Shown: positions 191-63,663 of the stretch, in pieces
Layout: each line of letters opens with the position of its first letter
Numbering within the stretch: the first letter of the stretch is position 1
Source: Rhodanobacter denitrificans
GTDB lineage: Bacteria > Pseudomonadota > Gammaproteobacteria > Xanthomonadales > Rhodanobacteraceae
Assembly: GCA_017848855.1 (NCBI GenBank)
Contig: JAFIHF010000021.1
Location: 1-64,000, forward strand
Length of the DNA: 64,000 nt
Reading direction: 5' to 3'
Position numbers and translations under genes: made by a program
Notes under the pieces: model-generated
The model's database searches: none
Told to the model about the DNA's origin: nothing
What the model saw: only the letters and a program-made list of their open reading frames with translations

Positions 191-208
191 AAAGCCTCGC
201 ACCCTTCT

Positions 209-240
209 CCCTCTCCCCCAAGCTCGCTTGGGGGAGAGGG
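209..240. repeat. CCCTCTCCC/GGGAGAGGG palindromic element
   Basis: A 14-bp perfect inverted repeat (209-222 with 227-240) around a 4-nt loop, followed by the typical flank TTGGGGTGAGGGGG. It lies 33 bp beyond the hemC stop and could act as a transcription end, but it has no T-run. Close relatives occur at about 24277, 24366, 39162 and 62728, and inside the lhr gene. Confidence 0.8.
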
Positions 241-273
241 TTGGGGTGAGGGGGCGCCCTTCGCTTCAGCCTG

Positions 274-24276: not shown

Positions 24277-24388
24277 CCTTCTCCCTCCGGGAGAAGGTGG
24301 CCGAAGGCCGGATGAGGGTACGGGGGTAGCGCAACGTTTCGCTCCGGACGAACCCTCACCCCCAGCCCCTCTCCCGAAGGGAGAGGGG
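24277..24388. repeat. Paired CCCTCTCCC palindromic elements
   Basis: Two hairpins face each other: 24277-24297 (9-bp stem) and 24366-24388 (10-bp stem, GAA loop). Their inner flanks GATGAGGGTACGGGGG and AACCCTCACCCCC are roughly complementary, so the whole segment can fold as one long cruciform. It fills the parB to glycosyltransferase gap and may end parB transcription. The same paired arrangement is seen at the four insert sites in lhr. Confidence 0.8.
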
Positions 24389-37275: not shown

Positions 37276-39150
<1,875 letters not shown>

Positions 39151-39161
39151 TCCTTCTTGCG

Positions 39162-39187
39162 CCCCTCTCCCGCGAGCGGGAGAGGGG
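39162..39187. terminator. CCCTCTCCC hairpin after rpoD
   Basis: CCCCTCTCCCGC and its complement form a near-continuous stem 11 bp after the rpoD stop. It belongs to the same palindromic family found elsewhere in this window. It probably serves as the transcript end, but it lacks a T-run. Confidence 0.55.
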
Positions 39188-39227
39188 TTGGGGAGAGGGG
39201 CTCTGTTTTCGCGTTGTCGCTGGATTC

Positions 39228-41818: not shown

Positions 41819-41894
41819 GGGCCTGTAGCACAGCGGTTAGTGCAGGGGACTCATAATCCCTTGGTCGAAGGTTCGAATCCTTCCGGGCCCACCA
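41819..41894 (+). tRNA. tRNA with CAT anticodon, probably tRNA-Ile2
   Basis: A complete 76-nt cloverleaf with encoded CCA. The acceptor stem is GGGCCTG/CGGGCCC, the D arm is GCAC/GTGC, the anticodon loop reads CTCATAA with anticodon CAT, and the T arm has GGTTCGAATCC. The variable region TTGGTC and anticodon stem context resemble the E. coli ileX-type tRNA, whose C34 is modified to lysidine to read AUA. Elongator Met is the alternative. Just downstream begins a small block of accessory genes. Confidence 0.9.
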
Positions 41895-47378: not shown

Positions 47379-50300
47379 ATGCAAGCGGATGCCTCCCCGC
47401 TGAGCGGCTTCCATCCCGCCGTCGCCGCCTGGTTCGACAGCCGCTTCGCCGCGCCCACCGCGGCGCAGGCGCAGGCGTGGCCGGCGATCCGCGCGGGCGG
47501 CCACGTGCTGGTGGCCGCGCCCACCGGCTCGGGCAAGACGCTCACCGCCTTCCTCGCCGCGATCGACGCGCTGGTGTGCGAGGGCGTGGCGCACGGCGGC
47601 GCGCTGCCGGACGAGACGCGGGTGGTCTACGTGTCACCGCTGAAGGCGCTGTCGAACGACATCCACGTCAACCTGGAAGAGCCGCTGGCAGGCATCCGTG
47701 CCGAACTGGAAAAGCTGGCCTTGCCCGAGGTGGCGATCCGCACCGCCGTGCGCACCGGCGACACGCCGCAGACCGAGCGCGCGTGGATGCGCAAGACGCC
47801 GCCGCACATCCTGGTGACCACGCCGGAGTCGCTGTACATCCTGCTCGGCTCCGCCTCCGGCCGCGAGATGCTGAAGAACACGCGCAGCGTGATCGTGGAC
47901 GAGATCCACGCCGTGGCCGGCAGCAAGCGCGGTGCGCACCTGGCGCTGACGCTGGAGCGGCTGGAGGCGCTGTGCCAGCGGCGGCTGCAGCGGATCGGGT
48001 TGTCGGCGACGCAGAAGCCCATCGAAGAAGTGGCCGACTTTCTGGTCGGCACAACATCACCCTCTCCCCTTTGGGGTACGCGGGGAGCGGCCATGGATGG
48101 CCGCGGCTCTGAGGAGCGAGGAGAGGGTGGGGGTGAGGGGACAACCTCGCCGCAGTCTCCATCGGAGCGCACTCTTGGCGACGTTCCCGCGAGCACCCGC
48201 CCCTCACCCTGCCCTCTCCCCGACGGGGAGAGGGAAAACATCGCGATCATCGACACGGGCCACACGCGCAAGCGCGACCTCGCCCTCGAACTCACCCCGC
48301 TGCCGCTCGAAGCGGTGATGTCGAACGACGCCTGGGCGCTGCTCTACGATCGCCTCGCCCAGCTGGTGCAGGCGCATCGCACCACGCTGGTGTTCGTCAA
48401 CACGCGGCGGCTGGCCGAGCGGGTGGCGCGGCACCTGTCCGAGCGGCTGGGCAAGCAGGCCGTGGCCGCACACCACGGCAGCCTCGCCAAAGAGCAACGC
48501 CTCGACGCCGAGCAGCGGCTGAAGCGCGGCGAGCTGGCGGTGCTGGTGGCCACCGCCTCGCTGGAGCTGGGCATCGACATCGGCGACGTGGACCTGGTCT
48601 GCCAGCTCGGTTCGCCGCGTTCCATCGCGGCTTTCCTGCAGCGCGCGGGGCGCTCCGGCCACCATATCGGCGGCACGCCGAAGGCGCGGCTGTTTCCCAC
48701 CACGCGCGACGACCTGGTGGAATGCGCGGCCCTGCTCGACGCCGTGCGCCGCGGTGAACTCGATGCGCTGGTGCAGCCGCCGCAACCGCTGGACGTGCTG
48801 GCGCAGCAGCTGGTGGCCGAGGTGGCCTGCCGCGAGTGGGACGAGGATGCGCTGTACGCGCTGGTGCGCGGCGCGTATCCGTATCGCGCGCTGTCGCGGG
48901 CGGACTTCGACGCCGTGGTGCGCATGCTGACCGAGGGCTTCACCACCCGCCGCGGCGCGCGTGCGGCCTACCTGCATCGCGACGCCGTGCATCGCCGCCT
49001 GCGCGCGCGGCGCGGCGCGCGGCTGGTGGCGCTCACCTCCGGCGGCGCGATCCCCGACACCGCCGACTACCTCGTGGTGCTGGAGCCGCAAGGCACCGTG
49101 GTCGGCTCGGTGCACGAGGACTTCGCGGTGGAGAGCCTCGCCGGCGACATCTTCCAGCTCGGCAACACCAGCTACCGCATCCTGCGCGTGGAGCGTGACC
49201 GCGTGCGCGTGGAAGACGCCCACGGCGTGCCGCCCAGCATCCCGTTCTGGCTGGGCGAGGCGCCGGGGCGCACCGACGAACTCTCGTTCGCGGTGTCGCG
49301 GCTGCGCGAGGAGGTCGATGCTCTGCTCCCCTCTCCCCCCGGGAGAGGGGTCGGGGGTGAGGGTTCGGTGCTCGCCGAACCTTCCAGCACAGCCGAACCC
49401 TCACCCCCAACCCCTCCCCCGGAGGGGGAGGGGAGTAAAGCCCGTGCATTGGCGTGGCTGCGCGACGAACTCGGCCTCGGCGAAGCCGCCGCGCAACAAT
49501 TGCTCGACTACCTCGCCAGCGCGAAGGCCGCACTCGGCGTGCTGCCCACGCAATCCACCCTGGTGTTCGAGCGCTTCTTCGACGAATCCGGCGGCACCCA
49601 GCTCGTCATCCACGCGCCGTTCGGCAGCCGCATCAACCGCGCCTGGGGGCTGGCGCTGCGCAAGCGCTTCTGCCGCCAGTTCAACTTCGAGCTGCAGGCC
49701 GCGGCCACCGAGGACGCGATCGTGCTGTCGCTTTCCACCAGCCACAGCTTTCCGCTGGAGGAAGTCGCGCGCTACCTGCACTCGAACACGGCCGAGCATG
49801 TGTTGATCCAGGCCCTGCTCGACGCGCCGCTGTTCCCCGCGCGCTGGCGCTGGAACGCGGTCACCGCGCTGGCGCTGCCACGCTTCGCCGGCGGCAGGAA
49901 GGTGCCGCCGCAGCTGCAGCGCATGAAGAGCGAGGACCTGCTCGCCGCGGTGTTCCCCGACCAGGTCGCCTGCCTCGAAAACATCGTGGGCGAGCGGCAG
50001 ATTCCCGACCACCCGCTGGTGGCACAGACCCTGCACGACTGCCTGCGCGAGGCGATGGACGTGGACGGCCTGCTGCGCCTGCTGCGGCGACTGGAAGATG
50101 GCGCGATCCGCCTCGTCGCGCGCGACCTCGCCGCGCCCAGCCCGCTCGCCGGCGCGGTGCTCAACGCCGCGCCCTACGCCTTCCTCGACGACGCGCCGCT
50201 GGAGGAACGCCGCACCCGCGCCGTGCGCCAGGATGTTCCCGCCAACGCCGGCGACCTCGGCCGGCTCGATCCCGACGCCATCGCTGCGGTGCGCGCGGAG

Positions 50301-52268
50301 GCATGGCCCGCGGTGCGCAGCGCGGACGAGATGCACGAGGCGCTGGATGCGCTGGGTGGCATCACGGTGGACGAAGCGGCGGCGAACGAGGGCTGGAGCG
50401 ACAAGCTGGAAAAGCTGGCGCACGACCAGCGCGCCACGCGTCTTCAACTCCCTCTCCCCCTGCTCATGGCAGGGGGAGAGGGTCGGGGTGAGGGGGGAGC
50501 TCTTGTTTCTACGACAACAGGGCGAGGCAAGGCCCCCCTCACCCCACCCTCTCCCCCAACAAAGTTGGGGGAGAGGGAGAAAAGCCAGGTCTGGACCAGC
50601 GCCGAAAAACTGCCGCTATGGCAAGCCGTGCATCCCGACGCTGCGTTGAAGCCCGCCATCGCCGCGCCCGCCGAATACGCCGCGCAAGCCTGGACCCGCG
50701 AAGACGCGCTGCGCGAGCTGGTGCGCGGCCGACTGCTGGGCCTGGGGCCGGTGACGGTGGCGGCGCTGGCCGCATCGCTGGGCGTGGCGCCGGCCGAGGT
50801 GGACGCCGCGCTGCTGCGCCTGCAAGGCGAGGGCTACGTGATCCAGGGCCGCTTCGATCCCGCGCTCGACGCGACGCAGTGGTGCGAGCGCCACCTGCTG
50901 GCGCGCATCCACCGCTACACGCTGGGCCGGTTGCGGCGCGAGATCGAGCCGGTGAGCCGGCGCGAGCTGATGCGCTTCCTGCTCGACTGGCAGCACGCGA
51001 GTCCCGCCACGCAGCTGCGCGGCCCCGATGCGCTGCCGGCCGTGCTGGCGCAGCTGGAGGGCTACGAAGCGGCGGCCGGCGCGTGGGAAGCAGAAATCCT
51101 GCCCGCACGCATCGCCGACTATTCGGCGAGCTGGCTGGATGAATTGTGCCGCGCCGGTCGCATCGCCTGGAGCCGCCTGCGCGCGGGCGGCGGCAGCGGC
51201 CCGGTGCGCGCCACGCCGATCGTGCTGCTGCCGCGCCGGCAATTGGCCGTCTGGACGGCCATCGCGCAGGCCTCCGAGCCGCAGGACAGCCTGCTGTCCT
51301 CGCGCGCGCAGGCGGTGGCCGACGCGCTGCGCGAACACGGCGCGCTGTTCTTCGACGAGCTGCAGTCCAGCGTGCACCTGCTGCGCACCGAGCTGGAGGA
51401 TGCGCTGGGCGAACTGGTCGCCGCCGGCCGCGTCAGCTCGGACAGCTTCGCCGGCCTGCGCGCCCTGCTGCTGCCCGCGGCGAAGCGCGAGGCGCCGCGG
51501 CACCGGCGCATACGGCGGCATGTGTTCGGCGGGATCGAGGATGCGGGGCGCTGGTCGCTCGTCCGTTCTTCCCTTCTCCCCGTTGGGGAGACAAATCGGC
51601 AGGACAGCCGATTTGCACGGCGCGAGCCGCCCGAAGGGCGAGGGCCAGGGATGGCCCGAGTGCAGGTGCCCGGCAGAGCCTGCCCCGGACTTGATCCGGG
51701 GGCGGATGAGGGGCGGGTGCTCGCGGAAGCACAGCTTGATGCGGACAGTGGCAAGAATGTCCCCTCACCCCAACCCTCTCCCCAAAGGGGAGAGGGAGAA
51801 CATCTGGAGCACATTGCGCGCGCCCTGCTCGCCCGCTACGGCGTGGTGTTCTGGCAGTTGCTGGAGCGCGAGGCGCCGTGGCTGCCGCGCTGGCGCGAGT
51901 TGTCGCGGGTGTATCGGCGGCTGGAGGCGCGCGGCGAGATTCGCGGGGGGCGTTTCGTGGAAGGGCTGGTGGGCGAGCAGTTCGCCTTGCCGGAGGCGAT
52001 CGCGCCGCTGCGCGCGATCCGCCAGCGCGCGGACGAGGGCGCGCTGGTCGTGGTGGGCGGTTGCGATCCGTTGAATCTGGTGGGCAGCGTGCTGGCCGGC
52101 GACAAGGTGCCCGCGGTGCCGGGCGCGCGCGTGCTCTACCGCGACGGCCTGCCGCTGGCGGCGCAGGTGGCGGGCAAGTTCGTGCCGCTGGCGGAGCTGT
52201 CCGCCGCGGAGACGCAGGCGGCGCGGCAGGCGTTGCAGTTGCGCGGCGCGCTGCGCCTCACAGCTTGA
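47379..52268 (+). CDS. lhr: ATP-dependent helicase Lhr with four in-frame palindromic inserts
   Basis: A 1629-residue superfamily 2 helicase. The N-terminal RecA domains show APTGSGKT (motif I), DEIH (motif II), SATQ (motif III), [12 protein letters not shown] and QRAGRSGH (motif VI). A winged helix and the Lhr core follow, and then the long Lhr C-terminal region. Lhr remodels DNA and RNA-DNA hybrids in repair. The gene holds four low-complexity Pro/Gly/Glu-rich segments, each encoded by paired palindromic elements (48051-48239, about 49326-49439, 50446-50586, 51565-51801). Without them it would be about 1400 residues, near the family norm. Its last 11 bp overlap the convergent NagX gene. Confidence 0.94.
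48051..48239 (+). repeat. Palindromic element insert 1 in lhr
   Basis: A 189-bp insert (63 codons) between the first and second RecA domains, after FLVG and before IAIIDTGH. The left arm has CCCTCTCCCCTTTGGGG, and the right arm CCCTCACCCTGCCCTCTCCC then GGGGAGAGGG. It reads through as residues rich in Ser, Pro, Gly and Glu without a stop. Confidence 0.85.
49326..49439 (+). repeat. Palindromic element insert 2 in lhr
   Basis: About 114 bp: one arm CCCCTCTCCCCCCGGGAGAG with flank GGGGGTGAGGGTTCGG, then its inverted counterpart CCGAACCCTCACCCCC and CCCTCCCCCGGAGGGGGAGG. The two arms are mutually complementary, so the insert can fold as one long palindrome. Encodes a Pro/Gly/Glu/Ser-rich 38-residue stretch. 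Confidence 0.85.
50446..50586 (+). repeat. Palindromic element insert 3 in lhr
   Basis: About 141 bp. The left arm is CCCTCTCCCCCTGCTCATGG with AGGGGGAGAGGG, and the right arm CCCCTCACCCCACCCTCTCC with GGGGGAGAGGGAG. Encodes about 47 residues between RATRLQ and VWTSAEK. Arms face each other as in the other inserts. Confidence 0.85.
51565..51801 (+). repeat. Palindromic element insert 4 in lhr
   Basis: About 237 bp, the largest insert, between GRWSLVR and [11 protein letters not shown]. The right arm CCCCTCACCCCAACCCTCTC with GGGGAGAGGGAG is canonical, and the left arm CCTTCTCCCCGTTGGGGAGA is degenerate. The interior has other inverted repeats such as CAAATCGG/CCGATTTG. The right arm is read in a different frame from that of insert 1, yet stays open. 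Confidence 0.8.
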
Positions 52269-61662: not shown

Positions 61663-62712
61663 TTGCGCAGCGCCACCATCAAGGATGTAGCCGAGCAGGC
61701 GGGCGTGTCGCTGAAGACCGTCTCGCGCGTCATCAACAACGAGCCCTCGGTGCACGCGCGCACGCGCGAGAAGGTGCAGCGCGCGATCGAGGCGCTGGAC
61801 TACCGGCCCGATCCCTCCGCGCGCAGCCTGCGCAGCACGCGCGCCTACGCGGTGGGCCTGGTCTACGACAACCCCAACCCGCACTACATCATCAGCATGC
61901 AGAGCGGCGTGCTGGACGCCTGCCGCAAGAGCGGCTACGGCCTGCAGATCCATCCCTGCGACTCCACCTCGCCGCGGCTGGCCGAGGAGCTGGTGGCGCT
62001 GGTCGGCAACGCGCGGCTGGCCGGCCTGGTGCTGGCGCCGCCGATGTCCGAGCAACCGGAGCTGATCCGCAAGCTGGCGGCGGCGAAGATCCCGTTCATG
62101 CGGGTGATCTCCGCGCGGCAGGATCCCAAGGACGGCTATCCCTGCGTCTACGTGGACGACCGCGACGCCGCCTACGCGATCACCGAACACCTGATCCAGC
62201 TCGGCCACACCCGCATCGGCTTCCTGTGGGGCGGCCGCGACCACCGCTCCAGCCCCGAGCGCTACCAGGGCTATGAGGACGCGCTGAAGGACTACGGCAT
62301 CGCGCTCGACCGCAAGCTGATCCTGCCCGGCGACTACTCCTTCGACGACGGCTTCCGCGGCGCGCGCAAGCTGCTCGCGCTGAAGGACCGCCCCACCGCG
62401 ATCTTCGGCTCCAACGACGAGATCGCCGCCGGCGTGCTCGCCGCCGCGCACTCCAGCGGCATCAGCGTGCCGTGGGAACTCTCCATCGCCGGCTTCGAGG
62501 ACAGCCCGTTCTCCAAGCAGTCCTGGCCCGCGTTGACCACCGCGCGCCAGGCCACCGAGGACATCGCCCGCCACGCCGCGCAGCGGCTGATCGCCAACCT
62601 GCAGCATGAGGCGAACGGCGAGCCGCTGGAGGAGGGCAACGAGGGCTTCAGCCCCGAACTGGTGGTGCGCGGTTCCACCGCGCCGTTGCGGAGCGCGCCG
62701 GCGAAGCGTTGA
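61663..62712 (+). CDS. LacI-family regulator of the GlcNAc locus (NagR-like)
   Basis: A 349-residue repressor. The helix-turn-helix is ATIKDVAEQAGVSLKTVSRVIN, followed by the hinge LDYRPDPSARSLRS and a periplasmic-binding-like sensor domain (about 65-335) ending GSTAPL. Its predicted operator is the TGACAACGTTGTCA palindrome at 59977. The start is set at a TTG preceded by GAGG, since LacI proteins begin a few residues before the helix-turn-helix; a GTG at 61600 is possible but adds an atypical tail. The effector is probably a GlcNAc derivative. Confidence 0.9.
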   Translation: MRSATIKDVAEQAGVSLKTVSRVINNEPSVHARTREKVQRAIEALDYRPDPSARSLRSTRAYAVGLVYDNPNPHYIISMQSGVLDACRKSGYGLQIHPCDSTSPRLAEELVALVGNARLAGLVLAPPMSEQPELIRKLAAAKIPFMRVISARQDPKDGYPCVYVDDRDAAYAITEHLIQLGHTRIGFLWGGRDHRSSPERYQGYEDALKDYGIALDRKLILPGDYSFDDGFRGARKLLALKDRPTAIFGSNDEIAAGVLAAAHSSGISVPWELSIAGFEDSPFSKQSWPALTTARQATEDIARHAAQRLIANLQHEANGEPLEEGNEGFSPELVVRGSTAPLRSAPAKR

Positions 62713-62727: not shown

Positions 62728-62752
62728 CCCTCTCCCCCCGTCGGGGAGAGGG
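62728..62752. terminator. CCCTCTCCC hairpin after the LacI gene
   Basis: CCCTCTCCCC (62728-62737) pairs with GGGGAGAGGG (62743-62752) around a 5-nt loop, 15 bp beyond the regulator stop. Same palindromic family as in lhr. Probably doubles as a transcript end. Confidence 0.55.
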
Positions 62753-62840
62753 TGGGGTGAGGGGCGAGTGCTCGCGACAGCCTTGCTTTTCTGTCGTCGC
62801 TCTATGGGGAAAAGGCTGCTGCTCTTGTGCACGCTTGGCA

Positions 62841-63509: not shown

Positions 63510-63663
63510 GCGATGTAATGGCAAAGCCAATCGACAATCAGCGAGATCATCGCGAGCACCCGCTCCCGACTCCCGCCAGCGGGAGAGGGGACATGCAGCG
63601 CTGTCGCAACTTCCGAGATCGCCGACCGGCATGCTCGCTCCGTCACCCCGCGAGGAAGCCGCC

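Follow-up and report, generated by a model that had tools for sequence, protein, structure and literature searches.

How can the gene of a conserved helicase carry four palindromic repeats inside its reading frame and remain intact? The question is raised by lhr, which encodes the large helicase-related protein Lhr, in a 64,000-nucleotide stretch of Rhodanobacter denitrificans DNA (GenBank assembly GCA_017848855.1, contig JAFIHF010000021.1, positions 1 to 64,000 of the forward strand; hereafter the window). A preliminary description of the window, made from the sequence without database searches, had proposed the four in-frame inserts, and we confirm them in an uninterrupted open frame of 1629 amino acids. 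Judged by sequence, the repeat is the G/C-rich intrastrand-triplex motif TM (earlier PIT, boxC). Our preferred explanation, to which we assign a probability of about 0.8, is that these stop-poor repeats are tolerated as disordered spacers and that Lhr is unusually permissive to them. The source genome of the window (G000; 3.49 Mb in 73 contigs, 93% complete) was compared with those of relatives, which are given other G numbers; L numbers denote fetched loci.

The lhr frame encodes the Pfam domains DEAD, Helicase_C, WH_Lhr, DEAD_assoc, WH3_Lhr and WH4_Lhr in the order of the Lhr helicase architecture, and the best Protein Data Bank sequence matches of its product are the Lhr structures 7lhl and 5v9x. 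The gene, its inserts and their arms lie as follows.

47379–52268, plus strand: lhr, the host gene; open frame of 1629 amino acids, assigned by Pfam domains and Lhr structure matches.
48051–48239, plus strand: insert 1, residues 225–287, 189 nucleotides, with TM arms, in the gap between DEAD and Helicase_C (Pfam limits 216 and 325).
48060–48139, plus strand: left TM arm of insert 1, with an extended hairpin loop (about 48077–48119) that is a separate repeat.
48201–48234, minus strand: right TM arm of insert 1, from sequence and the CCCTCTCCC marker.
49326–49439, plus strand: insert 2, residues 650–687, 114 nucleotides, in the gap between WH_Lhr and DEAD_assoc (Pfam limits 618 and 722).
49328–49364, plus strand: left TM arm of insert 2, from sequence and the CCCTCTCCC marker.
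49398–49434, minus strand: right TM arm of insert 2, from sequence and the TM core scan.
50446–50586, plus strand: insert 3, residues 1023–1070, 141 nucleotides, in the gap between DEAD_assoc and WH3_Lhr.
50450–50494, plus strand: left TM arm of insert 3, with CCCTCTCCC marker and TM core.
50534–50577, minus strand: right TM arm of insert 3, from sequence, with CCCTCTCCC marker and TM core.
51565–51801, plus strand: insert 4, residues 1396–1475, 237 nucleotides, in the gap between WH3_Lhr and WH4_Lhr, with nested palindromes.
51571–51592, plus strand: degenerate left arm of insert 4, from sequence, without an exact CCCTCTCCC.
51762–51796, minus strand: right TM arm of insert 4, with CCCTCTCCC marker and TM core.

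All four insert lengths are multiples of three and each insert has two facing arms, as the preliminary description had it. Its figure of about 227 added residues holds as the sum of the inserts, whereas compared with an orthologue lacking the inserts Lhr is longer by about 181 amino acids, because empty linkers hold residues too: the four linkers total 234 amino acids here and 53 in both G008 and G009. Every insert falls between Pfam domains, and in the AlphaFold model a predicted local distance difference test score (pLDDT) below 50 is restricted to the inserts and the chain ends (residues 227–282 in insert 1, 657–680 in insert 2, 1029–1066 in insert 3, and 1413–1468 in insert 4, the last being fragment residues 454–509 with a one-residue break). 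Insert 3 links two predicted beta strands (1019–1024 and 1069–1074). Predicted RNA folding is strong in all four, with z-scores of −9.0 (insert 2), −9.2 (insert 3), −5.0 and −4.9 (insert 4).

The arms vary in how closely they follow the repeat. Five of the eight contain the 21-nucleotide TM core at no more than two mismatches, and the other three deviate in spacing or sequence. The loop element of the left arm of insert 1 (ACGCGGGGAGNNGCCATGGATGGCNNC and its flanks) has 21 copies in the genome, is not present in G007 and lies inside a TM-like hairpin in 11 of the 12 loci viewed (L303–L314; the exception is L305), which makes it either an extended-loop subfamily of TM or a repeat nesting in TM. 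The nested palindrome of insert 4 (GAGACAAATCGGCAGGA), searched genome-wide as a repeat, occurs once, in lhr. A search of the window against Rfam returned a single match, a tRNA at 41819–41891, and none in the inserts.

The TM unit of this genome consists of CCCTCTCCC, a short loop, GGGAGAGGG, two bases and GGGGTGAGGG. It thus has the composition that characterizes TM, namely a pyrimidine block, a loop, a complementary purine block, a short loop and a third purine block (CCCTCTCCC..GGGAGAGGG..GGGTGAGGG); the assignment was made by eye against the TM_ECO sequences in Table 1 of Holder et al. 2015 (PMC4666352). According to the parts of that paper on which we draw, the E. coli sequences form an intrastrand triplex in vitro, the motif is also called PIT and is linked with boxC, and the many copies in E. 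coli K-12, some in inverted pairs, are always intergenic. The copies described here resemble TM_ECO in their three-block sequence, inverted pairing and multiplicity. They differ in that some have an extended loop and that about one-tenth of the sampled clusters lie in frame in conserved genes. Intergenic location describes the E. coli copies and is no part of the sequence definition.

The repeat is abundant throughout the genome. The window contains 21 occurrences of the CCCTCTCCC marker where 0.43 would be expected, and none of 100 shuffled sequences reaches that number; the TM core at no more than two mismatches has 159 matches in the genome against 15 for a reversed control. The stretches that we examined contain 113 full units, and clusters hold plus and minus copies as inverted pairs, besides single copies. 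At no more than one mismatch, the core is found in 28 of 61 genomes, with 0–139 copies per genome within the bacterial family of the host except in G035, which has the most of all 61 (274). A bias of TM towards strand runs on the G035 chromosome, hinted at among the matches listed, was not supported when all copies of one sub-type were listed (40 forward and 46 reverse, interspersed). Copies also lie about 15–400 bases from contig ends in G000 (contigs C1, C18, C26, C31, C40 and C55), where TM probably breaks the assembly.

Outside lhr, the window holds four intergenic elements, and a lone TM half-site at 63581. Five intergenic positions had originally been listed, but those at 24277 and 24366 are the arms of one dimer.

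203–252, plus strand: single intergenic TM, with CCCTCTCCC marker and TM core.
24277–24387, no strand assigned: intergenic TM dimer with a variant left arm, with CCCTCTCCC marker.
39163–39199, plus strand: intergenic TM directly past an open reading frame ending at 39150.
62728–62763, plus strand: intergenic TM directly past an open reading frame ending at 62712.

How such a repeat can be read through is suggested by its coding properties. The minus-oriented unit is free of stops in 108, 98 and 112 of 113 copies for the three frames, and on average 2.81 of a unit's three frames are open in the right-arm orientation and 2.05 in the left-arm one, compared with 2.25 when units are shuffled. The reading frame of the right arm indeed differs between inserts 1 and 4 and stays open in both, which is unsurprising because minus-oriented TM rarely has stops.

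Does the repeat lie in other genes as well? We took a census of the stretches around the TM matches listed together with ten loci (125 motifs in 98 clusters), calling a cluster in frame when the open frame holding it had, to its left and right, the codon usage of genes in the window; the codon model is simple and the counts are approximate. Among the matches listed, 10 of the 98 clusters are in frame inside genes and most others are not: four in lhr and one each in mfd, hrpA, an ABC-F ATPase gene, ribD, lpd and ppc. The original remark that one gene had taken four elements therefore holds for lhr, but other genes, and Lhr of other genera, are affected too. In lpd (dihydrolipoyl dehydrogenase), TM sits between the lipoyl and FAD domains. 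In mfd (L235, 229–4167, contig C1), three tandem pairs lie in frame within the D3 domain and supply about 140 additional residues; matches to mfd of G002 and G003 abut at that point, which marks a clean addition. Left uncounted were L193, L203, L239 and L241 (same-strand clusters with one frame open) and L236 (same phase, weak right flank). In two species (L190, L244), one open frame covers a DUF559 protein, an EpmA-like synthetase domain and the TM copies between them; the two parts may be fused through the repeats or belong to separate neighbouring genes, and this ambiguous case too is not among the ten.

In-frame clusters recur in other genomes: 4 of 29 in G011 (hrpA, lpd, murL and the ambiguous EpmA-like gene), 2 of 32 in G021 (lhr and ABC-F) and 3 of 33 in G027 (lhr, lpd and uvrD). 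The uvrD gene of G027, which belongs to another genus and encodes DNA helicase II, carries an in-frame TM pair (L375, 672–3020). Nine gene families are clear cases over five genomes (lhr, mfd, hrpA, uvrD, ABC-F, ribD, lpd, ppc and murL).

Are the four positions in Lhr particular to this gene copy, or do relatives share them? We aligned 121 Lhr sequences: our own, those of 40 of the 60 relatives searched, and 80 named ones. The 20 relatives left out comprise G005, G012 and G020 (weak matches) and 17 others, some of which, G051 and G058 among them, matched well. None of the 80 named loci was dropped; the frame is shorter than 1380 amino acids in 12, and 44 and 37 of these loci entered the structure alignments. 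Inserts that bear TM and add at least 10 residues are confined to the four sites, in 13, 7, 9 and 5 of the 121 sequences, respectively, and none of about 17 other intervals with at least 10 extra residues, mostly in few sequences each, contains the TM motif. Outside the genus, TM-bearing Lhr is found in G019, G021, G027, Dyella kyungheensis (L103) and a Lysobacterales metagenome-assembled genome (L107), and the Lhr of Stutzerimonas stutzeri 28a39 (L130) has one TM motif, at site 2.

The same sites also take other fillers. At least 10 extra residues are present in the main gap of sites 1–4 in 33, 25, 23 and 29 of the 121 sequences. Site 2 of G010 is filled by a different palindrome (GTAGGAGCGCACC...GGTGCGC), and the peptides at site 3 of G032 and L178, site 2 of L130 and site 4 of L114 are presumably of the repeat-encoded kind; in the Burkholderia sequences (site 2) and in G037 the linker is longer and no repeat was recognized in it. 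Similar-length sequence at the four positions in distant orthologues had been named in advance as evidence against insertion. Such sequence does exist in part, often derived from repeats and elsewhere without a recognized one; extra length at shared sites points to permissive linkers and does not speak against insertion.

Linker content follows the TM load of the genome. Linker length correlates with TM count (Spearman 0.71 over 41 genomes, 0.83 without G035 and 0.52 over the 28 genomes outside the genus), as does the number of TM-positive sites (0.78 and 0.66). Insert 3 is common to G000, G007 and G011, particular inserts are absent from other species of the genus (G002, G003, G004, G008 and G009 at site 2; G001 and G014 at site 3), and a quick 47-row tree built on core columns, with 15 forks open and the direction of changes unresolved, requires at least 9, 7, 9 and 8 changes between long and short states at sites 1–4. 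Each of the 41 lhr sequences examined for it is covered by one frame no shorter than 1424 amino acids, although runs of N or X hide the frame at site 1 in G001 and G016; the match in G014 includes one TAG in its last third, and its frame is nonetheless 1581 amino acids long. A broken lhr frame was observed in Stutzerimonas stutzeri RM2 (L165), with three stops in the stretch tried and a longest frame of 1146 amino acids.

Insert codons are under weaker constraint than core codons. By the Nei–Gojobori method, the ratio of nonsynonymous to synonymous change (omega) is 0.07–0.23 for the core and 0.32–1.60 for inserts (14 pairs). Insert 3 can be aligned by descent among the three genomes that share it; here synonymous divergence (dS) is 0.19–0.30, close to the 0.29 of the core, and omega is 0.57–0.94.

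We propose that TM, mostly as two facing copies, spreads as a dispersed non-coding repeat in the bacterial family of the host, and that copies within genes would survive only if they add a length divisible by three, introduce no stop and sit in a surface linker or loop. Having the two arms face each other would help, as almost every frame of the minus-oriented arm is open. In the cell, the mRNA would then be translated through the insert into a Pro/Ser/Gly/Glu-rich spacer, predicted to be disordered in solution. Such a spacer would be effectively neutral, kept by drift, and the order of events that we infer is gain, followed by nearly free divergence, growth by nested repeats and possibly loss. 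As the four Lhr linkers accept insertions across lineages, Lhr would collect them in repeat-rich genomes.

Several observations weigh against this explanation. Many of the insert omegas are unreliable, as the inserts are short and some are non-homologous, with dS above 1, and the correlations and their P values ignore relatedness. Between filled and empty lhr sites we could recognize no target-site duplication, the linkers being too diverged to read; the empty linkers of G008, G002 and G014 are unlike the ends of filled ones in sequence, and the native linker is replaced, not simply parted, at filled sites. The inserts of Mfd, Ppc and RibD split a domain model instead of lying between domains. 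In G035, none of the 23 sampled clusters is in frame and all four Lhr linkers are short despite the 274 copies; TM load alone is therefore not decisive. Finally, helicases make up four of the nine gene families (Lhr, Mfd, HrpA and UvrD), a raw share, which mere tolerance would not predict unless an argument from gene length or linkers were added.

That share bears on the idea that the inserts are functional, with triplexes or mRNA hairpins slowing transcription or translation and tying the expression of Lhr, Mfd and HrpA to their activity, or with the peptides acting as flexible tethers. The strong RNA folding, the helicase share and the common ownership of insert 3 speak for it, as does the published preference of repetitive extragenic palindromic (REP) insertions for repair genes, in the relevant section of PMC3733652. 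It is nonetheless very doubtful: constraint on the inserts is weak, some species of the genus do without particular inserts at sites 2 or 3, the sites are occupied by other repeats instead of TM in some lineages, and lpd, ribD, ppc and murL carry TM too. We regard as a similarly long shot the more specific proposal that entry is non-blind and gathers in genes for proteins that unwind nucleic acid or move along it (Lhr with four inserts, Mfd with three tandem pairs, HrpA and UvrD), where it would couple transcription to product activity as a self-sensing brake; if true, this brake would also account for the published REP excess in repair genes. Quite unlikely, too, is sequence-directed insertion by a recombinase or a trans-acting transposase, in which the four Lhr positions would be DNA hotspots. 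Their reuse in several genera is what such targeting would give, and the genome has two Y1_Tnp (RAYT-type) matches, one intact and one partial with a stop. Yet the nucleotide at which a repeat enters a given linker differs between repeat families, TM occupies many unrelated intergenic places, and the intact Y1_Tnp gene (L102, contig C69) is surrounded by a second repeat family of the genome, of the GTGGGTCGGGAT...ATCCCGAC type, instead of TM. No TM was found in the 1301 bases read around the partial match, leaving a RAYT linkage of TM unsupported.

Two further explanations would deny that insertion into a working gene took place. The suggestion that the inserts are old, native linker domains of Lhr that merely resemble the repeat is hardly credible. 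Linker length does vary in distant Lhr as well, but TM is genome-wide and mostly intergenic, the linkers of G008 and G009 are short, and TM-free relatives have no TM-like linkers; the suggestion is refuted for the TM arms and could survive for parts of the inserts not recognized as repeats. Highly improbable is a dead or mis-assembled lhr, or removal of the inserts after transcription or translation. Repeats break assemblies, TM lies near several contig ends, and site 1 shows homopolymer runs and an N run in G001 and X residues in G016; however, independent assemblies share the inserts, including long contigs (4.09 Mb in G011 and 3.48 Mb in G002), the core is constrained and the frames are single. 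A pseudogene or sequencing error, raised in the preliminary description as a possible refutation, is not supported. Of these explanations, we retain tolerance of a stop-poor repeat in permissive linkers.

The preliminary description had likened the inserts to Rickettsia palindromic elements (RPEs). The manner of insertion was rightly compared, whereas the element itself is the already named TM/PIT/boxC; identity with an RPE was abandoned once the TM sequence had been found in print. In-frame insertion with apparently intact function, as in RPEs, is indicated by the open frame and the constraint on the core, and Di Nocera et al. 2013 (PMC3733652) describe such palindromic repeats in frame in functional Rickettsia proteins. 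The present repeat occurs in another bacterial class, and it is likened to RPEs in manner, by description, not by RPE sequence. Their paper assigns RPE-4 and RPE-6 to CGTC repeats, and one of its sections reports GTAG and CGTC REPs in frame in many genes, with repair genes prominent, several REPs per gene, double insertions in uvrA of Opitutus terrae, and insertions at about one site in recB of two Xanthomonas species. Like these, TM is read in frame as palindromic repeats and dimers, several per gene. TM is a different repeat family, however; that section names RNA helicases, not Lhr, and four sites shared over genera and repeat families go beyond what it describes. None of the TM arms read carries a GTAG or CGTC tag at its ends, the consensus tail being GGGGTGAGGG.

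In-frame entry of REPs, with repair genes prominent, was thus already in print in 2013. New are the TM family within genes, the four Lhr sites, and the use of these sites by several lineages and by unrelated repeats; in the open library searched, no title or abstract described TM inside genes, and no literature on the translated insert peptide strings was found. TM, described so far as intergenic, is a source of translated linker sequence. With four fixed entry points that take unrelated repeats in several lineages, Lhr offers a natural map of insertion tolerance, and the recurrence of palindromic repeats in DNA-repair genes becomes countable over thousands of genomes. For annotators, Pro/Ser/Gly/Glu-rich segments in the proteins of such bacteria may be translated repeats, not conserved motifs.

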